Positions 2,376 through 38,671 of a stretch of 64,000 bases of DNA are shown here, one piece after another (positions within the stretch are counted from its first letter, which is position 1; each line of letters starts with the position of its first letter). A program made the translations under genes and the position numbers. Source of the stretch: Mesorhizobium sp. LSJC280B00 (GTDB taxonomy: Bacteria > Pseudomonadota > Alphaproteobacteria > Rhizobiales > Rhizobiaceae); the NCBI RefSeq assembly GCF_000502835.1, contig NZ_AYVL01000006.1, positions 128,146 through 192,145 of the forward strand, in the 5' to 3' direction. The notes beneath the pieces are model-generated. The model worked only from the letters and a program-made list of their open reading frames with translations, was not told where the DNA came from and did no database searches.

Positions 2376-4676
2376 ATGAGACCCGCCGTAACCGATCGCA
2401 TCGAAACCAAGAAATACGACCACCCGACAGGCGGCTGGGGATCGCTGAGATCCTTGGTCCGCAAGGCGCGAGGCGAAGGCCTGCTATTGTCCGGGATATG
2501 GAGCACGCTGCTCAAGCAGAACAAGGCCGACGGCTATATGTGCATGTCTTGCTCATGGGCAAAGCCAGCCCAGCCGAGGCCTTTCGAATTCTGTGAAAAC
2601 GGCGCCAAGGCGACGATGTGGGACCAGACCAAGCTGCGCTGCGAACCCGCTTTCTTCGCCGAGCATTCGGTGACGGAACTGCTCGATTGGCCGGACCACG
2701 ATCTGGAGAAACAGGGCAGGCTAACAGAGCCCATGCGCTACAGTGCCGCCACCGACCGTTACGAGCCGGTCTCCTGGGACGATGCGTTCCGCGACATAGC
2801 TGCCGAACTGCGGCGGCTCGATCCCAAATCGGTAGTGTTCTACACGTCTGGCCGGGCCTCGCTCGAAGCCTCGTTCATGTACCAGCTTTTTGCACGAATC
2901 TATGGGTCTTCGAACCTGCCCGATTCGTCCAACATGTGTCATGAATCGACCTCGGTCGGCTTGCCGGAATCGATCGGCTCGCCGGTCGGGACCGTGCAGC
3001 TCGAAGACTTTGCGAAATGCGACATGATGTTCTTCTTCGGGCACAACACCGGGGTGACGGCGCCGCGCCTGCTGCATCCGCTGCAGGAGGCACGTCAACG
3101 CAACGTGCCCGTCTTCACCTTCAATCCCTTGCCCGAGCGGGGACTGAAACGCTTCAAGAACCCGCAAAACCCTGTCGACATGCTGTCGCCCGGGCCTGGC
3201 ACCAAAATGTCCAGCGACTTCTTCCAGGTTCGTTCCGGCGGCGACATTGCTGCGATAACGGGCATCGCCAAAGCGTTGCAGGCGCTCGACGATGCCGCCC
3301 GCGAAAGCGGCAGGACGCGTGTCCTCGACACGGCTTTCATCGCCGAGCACACGCATGGCTTCGCCGAGTTCGAAGCCTTCCTGCGCAAAACCCAGTGGAG
3401 CGATATCGTCGCGCGATCCGGCATTGCGCAGACCGACCTGGAACATGTCGCCGAGGTCTACAGCCATGCCAACGCGGTGATCGGCAATTACGGCATGGGC
3501 CTGACCCAGCATCGGCACGGCACCGAGAACGTCCAGATGCTGTGCAACCTTTTGATGCTGCGCGGCAATATCGGAAAAGCCGGCGCCGGCATTTCGCCGC
3601 TGCGCGGGCATTCCAATGTCCAGGGGCAGCGCACCGTCGGCATATCGGAAAAACCCGAGCTCGTCCCGCTCGACAAGTTCGCCGAATTCTATGCCTTTGA
3701 ACCGCCGCGCGAGAAAGGTCGCGATACGGTCGAAACCTGCGAAGGCGTCATCGACGGATCGGTCAAGGGCTTCGTCGGACTGGGCGGCAATTTCGTGCGG
3801 GCCGTTCCGGAAACCGGCCTGGTCGAAAAGGCCTGGCGTGGGCTCGACCTGCATGTCGAGATCGCGACCAAACTCAACCGCAGCCACCTGATCGCCGGGC
3901 GGACAACCTATTTGCTGCCTTGCCTGTCACGGCTGGAAAGAGATCATCAGGCAAGCGGCGACCAAAGGGTGTCGGTAGAGGATTCCACCGCCTGTATCCA
4001 CGGCTCGTTCGGATCGCGACCTCCGGCTTCGCCGCATCTGCTTTCCGAGCCCAGGATCGTTGCCGAGCTTGCCAAGGCGACAGTGCCGGGCAGAAGTTCG
4101 ATCCCATGGGACGAGTGGGTTGGGGATTATTCCCGCATCCGCGACGAAATCGAGCGCTGCTACCCCCAACATTTCCGCGACTTCAACGAGCGTTTCCTGA
4201 CGCCCGGCGGCTTCCATCGCGACATCAAGGCGAGCAAGCGGGTGTGGGAGACGCCGAACAAGAAGGCCAACTTCAAGCTGCCAAGTGGCCTTGAAACCGA
4301 TCCCGACATCGATGTCGCCGGCCGTGATGTGCTGACACTGATCACGGTGCGCTCCAACGACCAGTTCAACACGACCGTCTACGGCTACAACGACCGGCTG
4401 CGCGGCATAAGCGGCACACGCATGGTGCTGTTGATGAACGAGAAGGATATCCAGCGCCTCGGTTTGAGCGCCGGACAGGAAGTCGATCTCGAAGCCAATG
4501 CGCAGGACGGTGTGGAGCGCCGCGTGCACGGGCTGCGCGTTACACCTTACTCGGTGCCGGAGGGAAATTGCGCCGGTTACTACCCCGAGCTCAACCCGCT
4601 GGTTCCTTTGTGGCACAGAGCCGAGAAGGCTCATGTTCCGGCGGTCAAATCGGTACCGGTGCGGATATTGCCATAG
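2376..4676 (+). CDS. FdhF/YdeP-family molybdopterin oxidoreductase
   Basis: This 766-residue protein belongs to the formate-dehydrogenase-alpha-like YdeP/CbbBc group of molybdopterin-guanine-dinucleotide enzymes. Visible signs are the N-terminal CMSCSW cysteine cluster, the FYTSGRASLEASFMYQL and SSNMCHESTS segments of the molybdopterin core, HTHGF, and a C-terminal molydopterin-binding domain with RSNDQFNTTVYG. E. coli YdeP is linked to acid resistance; the substrate of the rhizobial members is not established. I prefer ATG 2376 (GGGAG 9 nt upstream) over an ATG ten codons earlier. It stands alone, with a candidate EcfG-type promoter at 2318-2342, which would place it in the stress response. 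Confidence 0.88.
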   Translation: MRPAVTDRIETKKYDHPTGGWGSLRSLVRKARGEGLLLSGIWSTLLKQNKADGYMCMSCSWAKPAQPRPFEFCENGAKATMWDQTKLRCEPAFFAEHSVTELLDWPDHDLEKQGRLTEPMRYSAATDRYEPVSWDDAFRDIAAELRRLDPKSVVFYTSGRASLEASFMYQLFARIYGSSNLPDSSNMCHESTSVGLPESIGSPVGTVQLEDFAKCDMMFFFGHNTGVTAPRLLHPLQEARQRNVPVFTFNPLPERGLKRFKNPQNPVDMLSPGPGTKMSSDFFQVRSGGDIAAITGIAKALQALDDAARESGRTRVLDTAFIAEHTHGFAEFEAFLRKTQWSDIVARSGIAQTDLEHVAEVYSHANAVIGNYGMGLTQHRHGTENVQMLCNLLMLRGNIGKAGAGISPLRGHSNVQGQRTVGISEKPELVPLDKFAEFYAFEPPREKGRDTVETCEGVIDGSVKGFVGLGGNFVRAVPETGLVEKAWRGLDLHVEIATKLNRSHLIAGRTTYLLPCLSRLERDHQASGDQRVSVEDSTACIHGSFGSRPPASPHLLSEPRIVAELAKATVPGRSSIPWDEWVGDYSRIRDEIERCYPQHFRDFNERFLTPGGFHRDIKASKRVWETPNKKANFKLPSGLETDPDIDVAGRDVLTLITVRSNDQFNTTVYGYNDRLRGISGTRMVLLMNEKDIQRLGLSAGQEVDLEANAQDGVERRVHGLRVTPYSVPEGNCAGYYPELNPLVPLWHRAEKAHVPAVKSVPVRILP

Positions 4677-4743
4677 GCGTTCGTCGTTCGCGGCAGGCAC
4701 GCACCACGCCGATGTGCCCTGGCGCGACTTTCAAATCGCGACC

Positions 4744-5103
4744 TCAGCCGGCTCGCGCGAGTTCATCCACGGCATTCAGGATCGCACTCTGGCTCGCCGG
4801 CTTCTGCACGATCCTGCAAGCGCGGAACCCGGCCGGAATTTCGCGTTCACCAAAGCCTGAGAGGAAGGCGAACGGAACACCACGCGTCCGCAACGCTTCC
4901 GCAATCGGATAGCTGGTTTCGTCGTTCAACTGGATATCCAGTAACGCCGCGTCGACGCCGCCTTCGCCAACGAGCCGGAGTGCCGCCGTCACCGACGAAA
5001 CAGGTCCAACCACCTGATGGCCGGCTTTGCGCAGGTAAGCCGCCGCATCGTCGGCGATCAGCCATTCATCCTCGACGATCAGCACACGCACCTTTCCGGT
5101 CAC
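4744..5103 (-). CDS. Single-domain response regulator
   Basis: This is a 119-residue stand-alone receiver domain. The phosphoacceptor Asp lies in LLDIQLND, the acidic pair in VEDEW, and the conserved Lys in QKPAS. There is no output domain, so it should act through protein contacts or as a phosphate relay or sink. Its ATG overlaps the stop of the kinase gene (5100-6881) by 4 bp, so the kinase is its probable partner. Single-domain receivers next to HWE kinases are common in alphaproteobacteria and often feed the PhyR pathway. Confidence 0.9.
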   Translation of the reverse strand: MTGKVRVLIVEDEWLIADDAAAYLRKAGHQVVGPVSSVTAALRLVGEGGVDAALLDIQLNDETSYPIAEALRTRGVPFAFLSGFGEREIPAGFRACRIVQKPASQSAILNAVDELARAG

Positions 5104-6881
5104 GACGAGCCCTCGCGGGTCAGAGGAAATGCGATTTCCGCCTCCAAACCATTTGAGCGGAAACTTGTTTCAACTTTTCCGCCCAGCCTATAGCCGATTT
5201 CTCCGCGCAGAAGGGTAAGGCCGAAGCCGCTGTCGGTTGGCTCCTTGATGCGGGGGCCGCCCTTCTCGCGCCAGACGAGCTTGAAGGTTCCGTCGGCCAC
5301 CGACCATTTGACAACTATCCGCCCGGCAGGCCTCGACAGTGCGCCATACTTGGCGGCATTCGTCGCCAGTTCGTGGATGGCCATGCCGAAGGAAAGCCCT
5401 TGTGCCGGCTTGAGATTTACCCTCTTGCCATCGAGCTCAAACCGTTCGGGGCCGAAGGGATCGAGTTCCTGACGCAGCAGTTCCTCGACGGAGGCTTCCG
5501 TCCAGCTCTCGCGCGAGAGCAGACTATAGGCTCGTGACATGGCATGCAGGCGCCCGATCAAGGCTTCGGCGAACTCCTCTTTCGATGCCGAGTTTTCACG
5601 GGTCCGGTTGGTGATGCTGGCCACGACCGCCAGCATGTTCTTGACGCGATGGTTCAGCTCGGAGATGAGCACCTGCTGACGCTCTTCCGCCTGCGCCAGC
5701 GTCGTCACGTCGATCAGGGTCACGACGACGCCCTGGATGCTGCCGCTCTTGTCCCGGTACGGGTTGATGCGAACCAGGTAGAACCGGCCCTTGTCGTCGC
5801 GCGCAAGGTGATGGTTCAGGATCTCTCCCGTCTCGAGCACTGCCTCGATGTGAGGCCTCAGCTCGGGATAGTCGAGCTGGCTTGAAAGGTCGGTCAGCGG
5901 CCGTCCGACATCGGATGGGCGCAGATTGAAGAAGGCCGATGCAGCGGGGGTAAAGGTCCGCACCACAAGGTTGCGGTCGAGGAATATGGTTGCGATCTCT
6001 GTGCTTTCGAACAGGTTTCTGAGATCGCTGTTGGCGCGGTCGAGCTCCTCAATCTTGCTGGTCAGCTCTGCGTTGATGGTGCTGAGCTCTTCGTTGAGCG
6101 ACTGCTTCTCCTCCTTCGAGGCCTCAAGCTCCTCATTAGTCGACTGCGCCTCTTCATTGGCGGAGAACGTCTTCGTCTTATAGCTGGAAAAGTCGTGACC
6201 GGAATGGCCGCGCAGAGTGGGGTCGATTTCATCGGCGGCCCGATCCACGTCAGCTTTGTGCTCGCCACCCCCCTCGGCCAGCCCGTTCAGCACATTGAAG
6301 CCGCGGCCAAACGCCTGAAGCTTTGCGCCGATCTCCTCGGCGGGCGCTGCGATATCGATCAGGCCGCTCGAAATCGCGCTTTGCGGCATGTCCGGGTTGC
6401 GCGCGCCGGAACCGTTGGAGGCTTGGGCAATCGTCAACCCGCCATGTTCCTTGATCGCCCGGGCGCCCAGCGTGCCGTCCGAATCGCCCCCCGACAGGAT
6501 GATGCCTACGGCGTACTCCCCTTGGTCCTCGGCCAGTGCACGGAAGAAGATGTCGATCGGTTTGCGCTCGCGGTTAAGCGTGTTCGGCCGGCGTAGCGAA
6601 AGCGCGCCCTTACGGATGGTGAGGACGACGTTTTGCGGCATCACATAGACTTGGTCGGGTTGGACCGCCATGCCCTCCTCGGCGACGATGACCGGCATTC
6701 CGGTGTAACGTGCGATAACGTCATGCAGCAGGCTTTCGCGTTCTGGGCTCAGATTAGTGACGACGACGAACGCCATGCCGGTGCCGCCGGTCAGTCCTTT
6801 GAACAGGCCCTCCATCGCGGGAATGCCGCCGGCCGATGCGCCGACGCCGACAATGGGAAATCTTCCGTTCTGGAATACCAT
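5100..6881 (-). CDS. CheB-PAS-HWE histidine kinase lacking the CheR domain
   Basis: This is a 593-residue sensor kinase. Residues 1-235 are CheB methylesterase-like: the serine in GASAGG (Ser16) and the Asp in GGDSDGTLG (Asp135) remain, but the position of the catalytic His, normally in a QH or TH motif, is Asn43 (VVVTNLSP). Residues 242-290 are a Glu-rich coiled coil, 291-395 a PAS domain, and 405-590 an HWE kinase with the His-box ELNHRVKN (His411), HELATNAAKYG and the WRE signature. Usual relatives carry a CheR domain of about 200 residues between CheB and the coiled coil; here HDFSSYKTKTF joins directly to the coiled coil at about residue 239. ATG 6881 has GAGG upstream. Confidence 0.9.
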   Translation of the reverse strand: MVFQNGRFPIVGVGASAGGIPAMEGLFKGLTGGTGMAFVVVTNLSPERESLLHDVIARYTGMPVIVAEEGMAVQPDQVYVMPQNVVLTIRKGALSLRRPNTLNRERKPIDIFFRALAEDQGEYAVGIILSGGDSDGTLGARAIKEHGGLTIAQASNGSGARNPDMPQSAISSGLIDIAAPAEEIGAKLQAFGRGFNVLNGLAEGGGEHKADVDRAADEIDPTLRGHSGHDFSSYKTKTFSANEEAQSTNEELEASKEEKQSLNEELSTINAELTSKIEELDRANSDLRNLFESTEIATIFLDRNLVVRTFTPAASAFFNLRPSDVGRPLTDLSSQLDYPELRPHIEAVLETGEILNHHLARDDKGRFYLVRINPYRDKSGSIQGVVVTLIDVTTLAQAEERQQVLISELNHRVKNMLAVVASITNRTRENSASKEEFAEALIGRLHAMSRAYSLLSRESWTEASVEELLRQELDPFGPERFELDGKRVNLKPAQGLSFGMAIHELATNAAKYGALSRPAGRIVVKWSVADGTFKLVWREKGGPRIKEPTDSGFGLTLLRGEIGYRLGGKVETSFRSNGLEAEIAFPLTREGSS

Positions 6882-6936
6882 GCCACGCCTCGGTAACAGC
6901 CGCGGCTGCGAAACCGCCAAATCGGACCTCAGACTA

Positions 6937-7042
6937 ATGCATGTCGCGCAAAAGTGTGCAGCGGTTTTGCGATAACGAGATGAATAAAAACAACAGCCTA
7001 AAGCGCGTCGCATGAGGCCGGCAAAACGCGACGTGCTTTAGG
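6937..7042. repeat. Rhizobial intergenic mosaic-type palindromic repeat
   Basis: Two nested palindromes lie between the kinase and the next gene. CGCAAAA (6947-6953) pairs with TTTTGCG (6965-6971). A 15-nt arm at 6997-7011 pairs with 7028-7042 with one mismatch. The wording (TGTCGCGCAAAAGTGTGCAG and the AAAGCGCGTCGC arm) is what I recall from the dispersed intergenic mosaic elements of rhizobia. No second copy was noticed in this window. Confidence 0.6.
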
Positions 7043-7080
7043 ACCGGACCGAGCCTCAGGCCAGTAAATCGTCCTCGAAC

Positions 7081-7106
7081 GGAACAAAGCACCGCCGGTG
7101 GGCATT
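7081..7106 (+). promoter_or_regulatory. Candidate EcfG-type promoter (GGAAC-N17-CATT)
   Basis: GGAAC (7081-7085), 17 nt and CATT (7103-7106) lie about 27 bp upstream of ATG 7133. The same -10 variant (CATT) occurs upstream of the EcfG-like sigma gene at 36853-36877. Confidence 0.45.
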
Positions 7107-7132
7107 AACATCCGGTTTTCGAGGCGGTTCCA

Positions 7133-7330
7133 ATGGCAAAACGACCACCTGAGATAAAGCCGGCAAAACAAATCTCGTTACGTTCGCCGGATCTGGCCAA
7201 GGTCCCGGTATCCGAAGAAATCCCGCCTCGTCTGCTCGCGCGCGCGGAACGGTTGCAAGAGGCCTTGTCCCGTCATTTTGTACAAGTCCGCGCCGACAGC
7301 CGTGACTCCCGCAGAAAGAAGGAACAATGA
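7133..7330 (+). CDS. NepR-like small protein (putative anti-sigma factor)
   Basis: This 65-residue basic protein has a central amphipathic helix preceded by a proline (EEIPPRLLARAERLQEAL). NepR anti-sigma factors have a short helix with the pattern PVPDRFLDLLxQL. Aligned without gaps to the small protein at 36034-36210, nine of 23 positions in this segment are identical by my count (E, P, R, L, A, L, Q, A, L). I infer a NepR-like role in binding an EcfG-type sigma factor. The next gene, a receiver with a sigma2-like domain, begins 2 bp after its stop, which is the kind of partner NepR has. The assignment is a hypothesis. Confidence 0.55.
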   Translation: MAKRPPEIKPAKQISLRSPDLAKVPVSEEIPPRLLARAERLQEALSRHFVQVRADSRDSRRKKEQ

Positions 7331-7331
7331 G

Positions 7332-7928
7332 GTGCGCGACCTGCAAGGCTTGCATATCCTGATCGTCGAGGACGAATGGATGCTGGCGGGCGATCTTGCA
7401 CGTTATTTCAGCAAGATGGGCGCCGTCGTGCTTGGCCCCGTGGCGACAGTCGAACAGGCGTCGAAGCATACCGATGAGGCGGAAGCCGCAATCCTGGACG
7501 TCAATCTCAACGGAAGACGGGTATTCCCGATCGCGGACGAACTGATGCGCCGCGGCGTGCCGTTCGTGTTTTTCAGCGGCGACGAAGACATCGTTATTCC
7601 TGAGCGCCTTCGGTATGCCAGCAGCCTCAGAAAATCCTCGGACGGCCAGGCTGTTTTCGATGCTCTCTTCCCCTCCGAGCCCAAAGCATCAAGCGGAAAT
7701 CTGGCGACCGAGCCGTCAGACGACGTATTTTCCCTGCTGCCTAAGCTCAGGCTCGCAGCGCGTCTGCTGCTGGGAGACGTTGACGCTTCCGACCGGCTGG
7801 TCGAGCGGACGCTCGAGCAGGCGATCGGCGAGATCGACAGGAGACGATCCGGTTCCTCCACCGAGGACTGGCTTAACGGCATCATGCGAAACATCGTCAA
7901 GGCACGCGGAGCAAACCTGCTGCACTGA
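7332..7928 (+). CDS. Response regulator with C-terminal sigma2-like domain (reversed PhyR order)
   Basis: This is a 198-residue protein when read from GTG 7332, which has AAGGA 10 nt upstream; an in-frame TTG at 7278 is less likely. Residues 6-115 form a receiver domain with VEDEW and the phosphoacceptor in AILDVNLNG (about Asp56). Residues 130-187 align without gaps to region 2 of the EcfG-like sigma factor at 36222-36806: 21 of 58 positions are identical by my count, including the closing WLxxIMRN. PhyR, the known anti-anti-sigma factor, has sigma-like then receiver; here the order is receiver then sigma2, with no sigma4. I infer a phospho-controlled NepR-binding protein. Confidence 0.75.
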   Translation: MRDLQGLHILIVEDEWMLAGDLARYFSKMGAVVLGPVATVEQASKHTDEAEAAILDVNLNGRRVFPIADELMRRGVPFVFFSGDEDIVIPERLRYASSLRKSSDGQAVFDALFPSEPKASSGNLATEPSDDVFSLLPKLRLAARLLLGDVDASDRLVERTLEQAIGEIDRRRSGSSTEDWLNGIMRNIVKARGANLLH

Positions 7929-7964
7929 CCATGCCCGCCGGCAACTAGCATCTCTGCACATGGA

Positions 7965-8050
7965 TTATGACTCTTTGGCGGTTGGCTTTGGATAGGCCTT
8001 GGCCAATTTGAGGCGCGCCTGTTCGGTCGAGAACATCCAGTTGCGGCGGT
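7965..8050 (-). pseudogene. 3' remnant of a transposase
   Basis: On the minus strand a reading of about 28 codons ends at TAA 7967-7965 and contains WMFSTEQARLKL followed by AYPKPTAKES. Endings of the form FTTxxARxKLxxxYP are typical of IS630-type transposases as I remember them. The reading stops having sense at about 8050, where the IS66 fragment on the other strand begins, so this is a junction of two broken elements. Confidence 0.4.
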
Positions 8051-8752
8051 GCTCCGCCTGGTGTGGCCTTCACCTACGCTCGGGGCATTCATGCCGAGCG
8101 GATATTGCAGGGCTTCTCCGGCATCCTGCAGGTCGATGGCTATGCCGGATACAACAGACTGATCGCACCTGACCGTGTCGGCTCGGACATCCGGCTTGCC
8201 TATTGTTGGGCACACGCTCGCCGCAAGCTGGTGGAGATAACCCGCAACGGAGCAGCACCTATCGCCGAAGAGGGCGTCAAGCGGATCAGCGAACTGGGTC
8301 GGATCGAGGCCGAACTGCGTGGCCTTGATCCGGAGGCTCGCCTCGCCGGACGACAGGAACGATCAACGCCACTGGTCACCGACATGCAGACCTGGCTCGT
8401 CCATCACCGGGCCCGTGTCGCGACCAAGTCTCCACTCGGCGAGGCCTTGGCGTACATCGCCAAATATTGGGATGGTTTGAAGCTCTTCCTGACCGACGGC
8501 CGCATCGAGATCGACAACAACAGCGTCGAGCGAACCATCCGGCCGATAGCCCTCAATCGCAAGAATGCACTCTTTGCGGGGCACGACGCTGGAGCCGAGA
8601 ACTGGGCCACCATCGCATCGCTCATCGAGACCAGCAAACTCAACGCTGTCGATCCGCAGGCCTACCTGATCAATACGCTCACCGCCATCGTCAACGGTCA
8701 CAAGCAGAGCCGGATCGATGAGCTGCTGCCTTGGGCTTACAAGGGGAAGTAA
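8048..8752 (+). pseudogene. IS66-family transposase (TnpC), 5'-truncated
   Basis: The last 229 or so residues of an IS66 TnpC are open to the stop at 8752. Recognisable pieces are LQVDGYAGYNRL, YCWAHARRKL, the DGRIEIDNNSVERTIRP block with the catalytic Glu, and a C-terminal INTLTAIVNGH. A full TnpC has more than 500 residues, so the N-terminal half with its HTH and zinc-binding parts is absent. Homology by eye begins at about 8048 (APPGVAFTYARG). No tnpA or tnpB is nearby. The GTG at 8063 could be used, but the product should be inactive. Confidence 0.85.
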
Positions 8753-8869
8753 TGTGGCCCCGAAGACTACAGTCGGCCCAAAGCGGACTTCGGAAGGTAC
8801 GCAGATAGAGGATCGGCGAATGCCCCAAAGCCCGCACGCAGGGTGTGGACTCAGGGCGTTCCAGCGTCC

Positions 8870-9703
8870 TCAGTCTATGGCGAGAGAACTCGACAGTTCT
8901 CGGTACGCTTCGATCTGCTGCTGCAAGAGAGCAATCTTCTGCTCCGCCACCTGGATAGCGTCAGAGCCAGCGAGGAAGCGCCGTGGCAGTTCGTCCTGCT
9001 CAGCGAGCGTGATTAGAGCGCGTGCCAGCTTAGCGGGGTCACCGCCCTGCTTGCCGTTCTGGGACTTCCAGAAGGCAATCTGTGCCGTGCGTCGCTCGTG
9101 ATAATCTTCGATCGCGATTTCCGCGTAACTGGTGGACTCCTCCGTCAGAAGCTCCGTGCGGAAAAAGCCTGGGTTGACGATCATCGTCTCGATGCCGAAC
9201 GGACCGACTTCAGTCTGCAGCGCTTCCATCCAGCCATCGAGGCCAAACTTCGAAGCAGAGTAGGCTGTGCAGAATTCAAAGCCCATCAGACCTGCCGTCG
9301 AGGAGATCGAGACGATCTGGCCGGAGCGCTGCTTGCGCATGACCGGAAGGAACGCCCGCGTCACGATCATCGGACCGTCAAGGCTCGTGCTTAGCTGCAA
9401 CTGCATCTGCTTGGGAGACAGTTCCTCGAAATACCCGGCGTAGAAGCTGGCCGCGTTGTTGACCAGCACGTCGATCCGTCCGAACCGCTCAAGGGTCGCC
9501 TGCGCGGCGGCGTCGGCGTCAGCGGCCCTGGTGACATCGAGTTTCACGACAAGAAGGTCGTCGGAAGCACCTAGAGCGTTCGCCACCTTGTCTGGATTAC
9601 GGCCAGTCGCGACCACCTTGTGGCCGGCTGCCAGGGCCGCCTTGGCAATGTCCAGGCCGAGGCCACGTCCTGCCCCGGTGATGAACCACACTTTGTTACT
9701 CAT
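8870..9703 (-). CDS. Short-chain dehydrogenase/reductase
   Basis: This 277-residue classical SDR has the NAD(P)-binding TGAGRGLG motif near the N-terminus, NNA at the end of strand 4, the catalytic Ser in SISSTAG and the YSASK catalytic pair. An Arg after strand 2 (ATGRN) suggests NADP(H). The C-terminus carries a helical extension (AEQKIALLQQQIEAY). The ATG has AAGGACAC upstream. It is the third gene of a leftward group (aldo/keto reductase, SDR, SDR) facing a LysR regulator. The substrate cannot be predicted. Confidence 0.88.
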   Translation of the reverse strand: MSNKVWFITGAGRGLGLDIAKAALAAGHKVVATGRNPDKVANALGASDDLLVVKLDVTRAADADAAAQATLERFGRIDVLVNNAASFYAGYFEELSPKQMQLQLSTSLDGPMIVTRAFLPVMRKQRSGQIVSISSTAGLMGFEFCTAYSASKFGLDGWMEALQTEVGPFGIETMIVNPGFFRTELLTEESTSYAEIAIEDYHERRTAQIAFWKSQNGKQGGDPAKLARALITLAEQDELPRRFLAGSDAIQVAEQKIALLQQQIEAYRELSSSLAID

Positions 9704-36033: not shown

Positions 36034-36210
36034 ATGTCTCGCTCAAGGGAAGATTCCGTCAGCACGCGTGCCGATCTGACGATAGACCGGGAAATCGCTT
36101 CCTTGCTTGCGGCCATCGAACAGGAAAGGGTTCCTGACAGGCTGACCAAACTTGCGATCGAGTTGCAGCATGCGCTTATCGAAAGGCGCTTGCGCGAAAC
36201 CAGTAACTAA
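36034..36210 (+). CDS. NepR-like small protein (putative anti-sigma factor)
   Basis: This 58-residue protein runs from ATG 36034 to TAA 36208-36210. After a polar N-terminus (MSRSREDSVSTRADL) the core IASLLAAIEQERVPDRLTKLAIELQ resembles the NepR motif (two helices around VPDRFLDLL). NepR binds the EcfG sigma factor and is released by PhyR-P. It is convergent with the EcfG-like gene, 11 bp apart, rather than in the usual same-strand nepR-ecfG order. It is similar to the protein at 7133-7330 in the core. The assignment rests on motif and context. Confidence 0.65.
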   Translation: MSRSREDSVSTRADLTIDREIASLLAAIEQERVPDRLTKLAIELQHALIERRLRETSN

Positions 36211-36221
36211 CGTGACGTGTA

Positions 36222-36806
36222 TTAGCGGCGCCTCTCGGCTTCGAAGTCCAGTTGTCCTTCGGACAGATAGCTGCGCCTTTCCATCAGGGTTTGCGAGGAA
36301 CTTTCGCCAAGGTATTCCAGCACGCCGGCGCGTGCCCTGTTGAGCCGGCTCTTCACGGTTCCCACCGCGCAACCGCATATTTCGGCCGTTTCCTCATAGC
36401 TGATGCCCAGAACGCCTATCAACATCAGAACCTCGCGCTGGTGCTCAGGAAGGCTTTGGATGGCCTGGTGGACTTCCTTGCCCTGTACGGACCATTCCTG
36501 CGTCGCTTCCGAGATCGGCCGCAGCGAAGCGCAGTCGAGCAGGCCGGGCGCTTCCCTCACCGCGGCCCTGACACGCGTGTAGTAGGTGTTGCGCATGATC
36601 GTGAAGAGCCATGACTTCATGCGCGTTCCAGCTTCGAACTTGTCAATGTTGGCCAAGCCCTTGGTCAGCGTCTCCTGGACCAGGTCGTCGGCATCATCGG
36701 GAGTGCGGCAGAAGGTGCGGGCGAAAGCCCTCAAAGCGGGTATGAGGTCGACGATGGAAACTTCTTCGGTTTCGCGAGTCGCCAAGGCGTAGGCTGTAGG
36801 TGGCAA
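36222..36806 (-). CDS. EcfG-like ECF sigma factor (general stress response)
   Basis: This is a 194-residue sigma factor read from TTG 36806, which has GGGAG 8 nt upstream; no ATG gives a comparable length. Region 2 is LRAFARTFCRTPDDADDLVQETL with WLFTIMRNTYYTRVR, and region 4 is LPEHQREVLMLIGVLGISYEETAEICGCAVGTVKSRLNRAR. The short linker and wording are those of the alphaproteobacterial EcfG/RpoE2 class. A GGAAC-N16-CATT element about 47 bp upstream of the start would allow autoregulation. A NepR-like gene is convergent. It is likely the regulator of many genes in this window. Confidence 0.85.
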   Translation of the reverse strand: MPPTAYALATRETEEVSIVDLIPALRAFARTFCRTPDDADDLVQETLTKGLANIDKFEAGTRMKSWLFTIMRNTYYTRVRAAVREAPGLLDCASLRPISEATQEWSVQGKEVHQAIQSLPEHQREVLMLIGVLGISYEETAEICGCAVGTVKSRLNRARAGVLEYLGESSSQTLMERRSYLSEGQLDFEAERRR

Positions 36807-36852: not shown

Positions 36853-36877
36853 AATGCATTGGGCGAAAGATCGTTCC
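36853..36877 (-). promoter_or_regulatory. Candidate EcfG-type promoter of the sigma gene (GGAAC-N16-CATT)
   Basis: On the minus strand GGAAC (36877-36873), 16 nt and CATT (36856-36853) lie about 47 bp upstream of the likely TTG start. It is divergent from the element at 36953-36978. Confidence 0.45.
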
Positions 36878-38121: not shown

Positions 38122-38616
38122 TCACGAATGGCTGGCTTCCTCGGCCTTTTTCTCCCGCTGCTGCCTGAGGACCTCGTCGGTTCCGACCAGCTTCTTCGAT
38201 CCGCCGGGGATCGCGGTGGAAACAACAGCCGGCGGGTCGCTTGCGGGGAAAGAATCCTCCAGACCCGCCTGCAGCTGGTCTTCCAGCGTCTGCGGCTCTT
38301 CCGAGCGGCCAGGGGTCCTTCGGGTGTCTACATTCTCCAGCGGCTGTGTCATGTCCGGTGAAGACCTGACTTCTCGAATCCAGCCATAGAGCTGTTCGAT
38401 GGCAAATTCCTTCATTGTGTCGAAATCGGCCTTTTCGTCACGCGATGCCTCGATTTGGTCAACCATGGTCTTCTCGAACCGTTCGAGGCTCTCGCTTCCA
38501 CACGCTCGGCAGAGACGCACCAGCGCCTCGCGCAGTATGAGCGGCGCAAAGTGCGCTGTCGCCTCGAGCCTGAGCTGCTGCAAACGCTCCGGGGTAGCGG
38601 CTTGGAACTTCGACAT
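38122..38616 (-). CDS. Hypothetical protein, strong EcfG-regulon candidate
   Basis: This is a 164-residue protein. The first 95 residues are helical with a C-x2-C in RLCRACGSE, and the C-terminus contains LEDSFPASDPPAVVSTAIPGG, a short motif I know from several rhizobial stress proteins. It is acidic and soluble. The sequence upstream has a perfect EcfG promoter consensus (38647-38671), the best in the window, 31 bp from the ATG. The molecular function is not known. Confidence 0.7.
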   Translation of the reverse strand: MSKFQAATPERLQQLRLEATAHFAPLILREALVRLCRACGSESLERFEKTMVDQIEASRDEKADFDTMKEFAIEQLYGWIREVRSSPDMTQPLENVDTRRTPGRSEEPQTLEDQLQAGLEDSFPASDPPAVVSTAIPGGSKKLVGTDEVLRQQREKKAEEASHS

Positions 38617-38646
38617 GCTCGACCTCTTCGCCTAGTGGAGCATGTC

Positions 38647-38671
38647 AACGAAAATTGTCGGCGGATGTTCC
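38647..38671 (-). promoter_or_regulatory. EcfG promoter, perfect consensus (GGAAC-N16-CGTT)
   Basis: On the minus strand GGAAC (38671-38667), 16 nt and CGTT (38650-38647) match the alphaproteobacterial EcfG consensus at every position. It lies 31 bp upstream of ATG 38616. Confidence 0.75.

Follow-up and report, generated by a model that had tools for sequence, protein, structure and literature searches.

Domain architecture of the REC-sigma2 protein

We analysed a stretch of 64,000 nucleotides from Mesorhizobium sp. LSJC280B00 (hereafter the window), in which the gene at 7332-7928 (+ strand, GTG start) encodes a response regulator of 198 amino acids, here called REC-sigma2, with an N-terminal receiver (REC) domain and a C-terminal sigma2 domain. 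It lies directly behind a gene for a small NepR-like protein, and the same window holds an EcfG2-type sigma factor. The receiver (residues 1-115; 7332-7676, +) is of the SdrG/FATGUY-like type and presents E13, D14, D56, S82 and K101, with Asp56 placed within AAILDVNLN. The EcfG-like sigma2 domain (residues 131-192; 7722-7907, +) forms three helices in the structure model. The order of receiver followed by sigma2, with no sigma4, had been proposed in an earlier note made from the sequence alone, and it holds: the protein ends 11 residues past the aligned block, the Pfam scan found no sigma4 match, and nothing long enough to be a sigma4 domain follows sigma2 in the window protein or in 26 aligned distant relatives.

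Residues 130-187 align without gaps to residues 16-73 of the sigma factor encoded at 36222-36806, with 21 of 58 positions identical, exactly as counted in the earlier note. None of 20,000 shuffles of this segment attained 21 identities (the best reached 16), and a chance likeness was rejected on these grounds. BLASTP between the two proteins gave 26/71 identities (E 5e-11), and the profile search suggested in that note returned sigma2, with Pfam PF22029 (PhyR_sigma2) matching residues 135-184 at 28.0 bits (cut-off 27). The Pfam receiver match is weak (residues 9-87), and in NCBIfam the protein resembles PhyR, PRK13435-type response regulators and RNA polymerase sigma factors, with every score well under its cut-off (PhyR model, 41 bits; cut-off 240). 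When the C-terminal segments of the family were scanned alone, PF22029 was found at E ≤ 0.01 in 37/37, window included; among distant full-length relatives scanned whole, this threshold was reached in 5/8, and one passes the cut-off.

A structural search with the whole protein was dominated by receivers and multi-domain response regulators, and the sigma2 part was therefore modelled and searched separately. The resulting model has a pLDDT (predicted local distance difference test) of 82.5, and its top Foldseek matches are 5uxx_A and 5uxx_C, the sigma factor of an RpoE-NepR complex (root-mean-square deviation (rmsd) 1.4; template-modelling score 0.77-0.78 by query length). Ranks 1-39 were sigma factors, initiation-complex chains or PhyR. 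On the evidence of sequence and model, the C-terminal domain is a sigma2 domain, and an EcfG-like one.

Conservation and distribution of the family

The likeness is not confined to the window: a search with the REC-sigma2 protein yielded 453 relatives (E ≤ 1e-3), 120 of them listed. Full-length REC-sigma2 is present in 55 of the 146 genomes of the genus (taken as Mesorhizobium because all 23 named loci belong to it), as read from the listed matches and with G081, G035, G094 and G145 included on partial matches. Other genera of the same family have it too (in a sample of 297 genomes), as do two more families of the order (in a sample of 347), and it is carried by plasmids of Ensifer, Shinella, Martelella, Roseivivax, Paracoccus, Ketogulonicigenium and Tistrella. 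Matches were present in 336 plasmid records, and in 31 of them a single place spans 80% or more of the query; eight of the 31 loci were examined, and both domain profiles matched in all eight. No earlier description of a receiver-sigma2 protein was found in the open-licence literature, most subscription papers being outside the search.

Across 68 aligned REC-sigma2 proteins, D56, K101, P77 and F80 are invariant, position 82 is always S or T, and E13 and D14 are present in 67, the remaining one having a gap. The dominant sigma2 patterns are LPKLRLxARLLL and AADRLVExTLE. The ending WLxxIMRN, to which the earlier note had drawn attention, is indeed shared by the two window proteins, but a similar ending occurs in only 7/68 aligned proteins. 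The ratio of nonsynonymous to synonymous substitution rates (dN/dS), calculated for 20 loci plus the window (L008 and L022 left out), is 0.083 for the receiver, 0.118 for sigma2 and 0.52 for the linker. Judged by these ratios, both domains are under purifying selection, which disfavours reading REC-sigma2 as a non-functional remnant. REC-sigma2 is a conserved family in rhizobia and some other Alphaproteobacteria.

In region 2.4, the RN pair is present in 7/68 REC-sigma2 proteins (window included) versus 40/43 EcfG-type proteins, and the mean charge at the end of this region is +0.4 in REC-sigma2 (33 of 36 extracted) versus +3.4 in EcfG-type proteins (43/43), comparing ends of 17-19 residues with EcfG stretches of 22 residues. 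The features of an extracytoplasmic function (ECF) sigma factor, namely sigma2 together with sigma4 and an intact region 2.4, are thus not those of the REC-sigma2 family. Since sigma4 is absent and little is left of the part of sigma2 that reads DNA, REC-sigma2 is likelier, from its sequence, to be a decoy than a sigma factor.

NepR-like proteins

The gene directly upstream (7133-7330, +) ends 1 base ahead of the REC-sigma2 start and encodes a NepR-like protein of 65 amino acids that aligns only over the second-helix stretch of NepR, IPPRLLARAERLQEA. This is the helix of NepR that lies on sigma2. A second NepR-like protein, of 58 amino acids (36034-36210, +), adjoins the sigma factor gene and aligns with both NepR helices, the helix borders used for placing the aligned stretches being those we take to apply to NepR. 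In profile-profile comparison with NepR (all 28 loci being used for the NepR profile, and the 21 upstream rows being picked by position), the upstream protein matched over 25 columns, in the second helix only (80.7% probability, E 1.3e-5), and the 36034-36210 protein over 37 columns spanning both helices (hhalign, 90.7% probability, E 1.3e-6); 0/100 column shuffles reached the score of either. The Pfam NepR model PF18557 is reached by neither protein and BLASTP gives no match between the two, so that their NepR likeness rests on the profile-profile comparison. The NepR-like gene that the earlier note placed immediately upstream is thus supported, with a likeness limited to helix 2.

The upstream protein, whose dN/dS is 0.32 in the helix but 0.97 ahead of it and 0.55 behind it, is constrained in the helix and little elsewhere. 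A two-helix NepR-like protein adjoins the EcfG2-type sigma gene in 28 of 30 loci, and the 36034-36210 protein is likely, as a prediction, to be the anti-sigma of the adjoining sigma factor.

The earlier note had also suggested a genome search for receiver-sigma2 proteins encoded beside NepR-like genes. A NepR-like open reading frame (ORF) lies directly upstream of REC-sigma2 in 20 of 22 Mesorhizobium loci, being absent from L022 and disturbed in L008, where the ORF (4781-4999 of that locus) has an altered C-terminal end past RLQEA. In the wider set, 13 of the 30 loci not tied to the training sets have such an ORF (E < 0.01) no more than 2.5 kb from REC-sigma2; the hidden Markov model (HMM) search used a motif-filtered set of 18 upstream NepR-like rows, and L179 and L181, whose matches lie in or next to the training sets, are left out of this count. 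It also stands beside REC-sigma2 in five of the eight named plasmid loci, including those of Paracoccus, Ketogulonicigenium and Tistrella. The NepR-like HMMs missed the canonical NepR in L111, and so mark a divergent subgroup.

The EcfG2-type sigma factor, the kinase and the wider module

The sigma factor at 36222-36806 (-) is an ECF sigma factor with sigma2 and sigma4, convergent with the 36034-36210 gene across an 11-bp gap. We label it EcfG2-type, which does not imply orthology to RpoE5 or EcfG2. This sigma factor was found in 53 of the 55 genomes with REC-sigma2, versus 14 of the 91 without it (Fisher p 4e-24 over 146 genomes, a statistic that ignores shared ancestry; the 67 genomes counted as having the sigma factor are those with matches at E ≤ 1e-50). 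Taking one REC-sigma2 gene and the nearest sigma gene in each of the 53 genomes that have both, the two are on the same contig in 49 and within 35 kb in 47. Just downstream of REC-sigma2, the window holds a fragment of an IS66-family transposase (8063-8752, +), and mobile DNA may account for the variable distance of 2-33 kb that is usual between the two genes.

Divergent from the NepR-like/REC-sigma2 pair is a gene for a histidine kinase with CheB, PAS and HWE parts (5100-6878, -), adjoined by a gene for a single-domain response regulator (4744-5103, -). The near relatives of this kinase have the order CheB-CheR-PAS-HWE, and the window kinase, taken over 5100-7013 (-), is without their CheR domain (Pfam on L006). 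Relative to L006-L008, the window gene lacks about 1,323 bases (441 codons, in frame) around position 6165, where a 2-base overlap marks the junction. An Rfam search over 4000-9000 gave no match at gathering scores.

In the wider loci, an HWE-kinase gene is near REC-sigma2 in 18/32 and an EcfG-type sigma gene in 11/32; 7/32 have neither of these nor a NepR-like gene. In three of the 18 kinase loci (L110, L182 and L183) the best match falls in the CheB part of the window kinase, and the HWE domains were confirmed by Pfam. Two loci of another family (L177 and L178) present, in order on one strand, an HWE kinase, a single-domain regulator, a NepR-like ORF and REC-sigma2, with overlapping ends of the kinase and regulator genes and of the NepR-like and REC-sigma2 genes. 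In L180 the kinase matches are split over three ORFs and the kinase looks broken, and REC-sigma2 (with a shortened start) and the EcfG2-type sigma gene remain.

The canonical PhyR, NepR and EcfG are encoded together on contig C18 of the same genome. As canonical NepR is near universal in the genus (145/146 genomes) and REC-sigma2 is present in 55/146, the latter belongs to an accessory second module beside the PhyR-NepR-EcfG locus. The gene content suggests a second general-stress module made up of an HWE kinase, the receiver protein, NepR-like proteins and the EcfG2-type sigma factor.

Promoter patterns

A candidate EcfG-type promoter, GGAAC-N17-CATT, was located at 7081-7106 (+) ahead of the NepR-like/REC-sigma2 operon; a GAAC-N16,17-C/.. 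pattern is shown in PMC4814048. Of 22 Mesorhizobium loci (L006-L021, L023-L027 and the window; L022 and the fragment L028 are left out), 18 have a perfect GGAAC-N16-CGTT about 250 bp upstream of REC-sigma2 and ahead of the NepR-like gene. In the window, as in its three nearest relatives, GGAAC-N17-CATT takes the equivalent place. Counted over the window by itself, the CATT pattern carries little weight, since three occurrences were found where 0.74 are expected and 3 of 100 shuffles reach three; with so few patterns, near chance, the support for the promoter is its conserved position. In the wider loci, a perfect site within 250 bp upstream of REC-sigma2 is present in 11/28, with about 0.4 expected from the pattern density, although kin (L174/L175, L177/L178 and L093/L096/L184) are counted singly here and the independent cases are fewer. 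Among these, L177 and L178 have a perfect pattern 237 bp before REC-sigma2. In none of the eight plasmid loci is there a perfect site on the gene's strand within 250 bp upstream.

The EcfG2-type sigma gene is preceded by GGAAC-N16-CATT (36853-36877, -), at a near-constant place in all 29 orientable loci of 30. Both module promoters of the window thus have the -10 variant CATT, not CGTT, and this variant may distinguish the promoters that the EcfG2-type sigma factor uses. Near the EcfG2-type sigma gene, at 38122-38671 (-), the sole perfect GGAAC-N16-CGTT in the window stands just upstream of a gene for a protein of 164 amino acids without a Pfam match; chance alone would give about one site of this kind. 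In L105 and L107, a perfect EcfG-type pattern stands just before the neighbouring EcfG-type sigma gene and not before REC-sigma2 (1478 and 1118 bases past the REC-sigma2 start, respectively).

Evolutionary origin

The earlier note had described REC-sigma2 as a PhyR in reverse order, a description that is not supported as an account of its descent. In a receiver tree (a quick tree with a long branch, to be read with caution), 25 PhyR receivers fall on one side of a branch (97*) and 37 REC-sigma2 receivers are apart, grouping with SdrG/MrrA-type and other single-domain regulators; by sequence, the best match of the REC-sigma2 receiver in the PDB is SdrG (5ieb). The sigma2 part is nearer to EcfG than to PhyR in a profile comparison with 40 of 43 EcfG-type and 24 of 25 PhyR proteins. 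With the receiver and sigma2 affinities both pointing elsewhere, REC-sigma2 is probably no rearranged PhyR, and an origin from PhyR by circular permutation is disfavoured. From these affinities it looks like an independent fusion that converged on the PhyR idea.

Proposed mechanism and alternative explanations

Taken together, we consider it probable that REC-sigma2 is a phosphorylation-controlled sigma decoy (an anti-anti-sigma) that binds a NepR-type inhibitor and so frees the EcfG2-type stress sigma factor. The earlier note had put forward a second type of phospho-controlled NepR-binding protein as the simplest idea, and this is also the most likely function in our analysis, given the phosphorylation residues, the promoter, and the NepR-like, EcfG and HWE-kinase neighbours. 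In such a mechanism, the HWE kinase would phosphorylate Asp56, directly or via the single-domain regulator, and phosphorylation would uncover sigma2. The uncovered domain would then dock on helix 2 of a NepR-type protein; the two-helix 36034-36210 protein is the likeliest partner, and its capture would release the EcfG2-type sigma factor. Through the EcfG-type promoter the release could become self-reinforcing, and the helix-2-only protein made together with REC-sigma2 could act as a brake that competes for the sigma2 surface.

A more specific version can be advanced tentatively, our estimate being that it is rather less probable than not. It holds that REC-sigma2 and the upstream protein are a matched half-pair, in which the switch was rebuilt from a sigma2-only mimic and a helix-2-only NepR, encoded immediately next to each other behind a promoter of the sigma factor's own type, as a second, independently assembled phospho-controlled partner switch serving EcfG2-type sigma factors. 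If so, it would supply the EcfG2-type sigma factors of Alphaproteobacteria with a dedicated control that has so far been missing.

The alternative that deserves most attention is that REC-sigma2 acts as a third-party PhyR on the canonical NepR/EcfG pair of contig C18, the EcfG2-type sigma factor being only a co-inherited neighbour. That pair is available, with canonical NepR in nearly all genomes of the genus and the complete PhyR, NepR and EcfG set in the genome studied here; moreover, the EcfG2-type sigma factor is absent from 2 of the 55 REC-sigma2 genomes, and 18 of 22 REC-sigma2 promoters have the CGTT form, versus CATT before the EcfG2-type sigma gene. On the other hand, REC-sigma2 co-occurs and is closely linked with the EcfG2-type sigma gene, and its accessory distribution does not follow that of the near-universal canonical NepR, so that we regard action on the canonical pair as unlikely. 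Less likely again is a role mainly as phosphate hub or sink in the manner of SdrG/MrrA, with sigma2 merely docking to the half-NepR or to another regulator. The FATGUY type of the receiver and its position in the receiver tree speak for this role, and known FATGUY members pass phosphate between HWE/HisKA2 kinases (PMC5964349), but sigma2 is itself under purifying selection (0.118), and its linked genes belong to a sigma/anti-sigma system.

Two further explanations concern the C-terminal domain itself. Split sigma factors exist, as in SigO and RsoA (PMC8103513), and a sigma2 domain without sigma4 could be half of one, binding RNA polymerase; the loss of the region-2.4 motif and positive charge in most relatives makes this very improbable. 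That the helices are instead an ANTAR-like RNA-binding domain, as in Rv1626 (which we take to be a REC-ANTAR protein), with an incidental sigma likeness, is scarcely credible: the rmsd is large and it is the receiver that dominates the whole-protein structure list, while the domain alone retrieves sigma2 domains first and Pfam calls sigma2, and an ANTAR domain is disfavoured accordingly.

Comparison with known systems

PhyR is the anti-anti-sigma of the alphaproteobacterial general stress response, and the mimicry of a sigma factor by a response regulator is known as its trick. REC-sigma2 resembles PhyR (RsiB of Sinorhizobium) in joining a receiver to a sigma-factor mimic with a sigma2-like domain, and many of its loci likewise lie beside NepR-like, EcfG-type or HWE-kinase genes. 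The two differ in that PhyR has the order sigma2-sigma4-receiver, whereas REC-sigma2 has the receiver first and lacks sigma4, and also in the affinities of both domains, as seen above. A second mimic that was assembled separately and has a kinase, NepR-like proteins and a sigma factor of its own would mean that evolution arrived at this trick more than once. It would further reveal how small a part of the sigma fold suffices for a decoy, and so open the minimal NepR-binding surface to direct test.

The receiver is of the type of the FATGUY regulators SdrG and MrrA, whose motif is PFXFATG(G/Y) (PMC5964349). REC-sigma2 has PFxF-[FY]-[ST]-G in its place (PFVFFSG in the window), with P77 in 68, F78 in 63, F80 in 68, F/Y81 in 68, S/T82 in 68 and G83 in 60 of the 68 proteins. 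In contrast to the known members, which are a receiver alone, it adds a linker and a sigma2 domain.

Among small NepR-like proteins, the closest parallels are NepR2 of Sphingomonas melonis (PMC6599016) and MexAM1_META2p0735 of Methylobacterium (PMC4814048), NepR paralogues that antagonise PhyR, with EcfG control and a proposed negative feedback. The 7133-7330 protein differs from them in matching NepR helix 2 only and in having its gene directly next to that of its likely target; in the accessible text of the two papers, no receiver-sigma2 partner is mentioned for either.

Finally, the sigma factor itself is comparable to EcfG2 of Rhizobium etli and RpoE5 of Sinorhizobium meliloti, each a second EcfG (ECF15) sigma factor encoded outside the phyR locus. 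In S. meliloti, an unannotated RsiA-like ORF is found on the opposite strand downstream of rpoE5 (PMC6180224, PMC3188799), an arrangement that resembles the one at 36034-36806. In the accessible parts of these sources, no dedicated anti-anti-sigma is named for EcfG2 or RpoE5, and REC-sigma2 would be a candidate for this function; the module would thereby suggest a route by which the second EcfG sigma factors of rhizobia are controlled.
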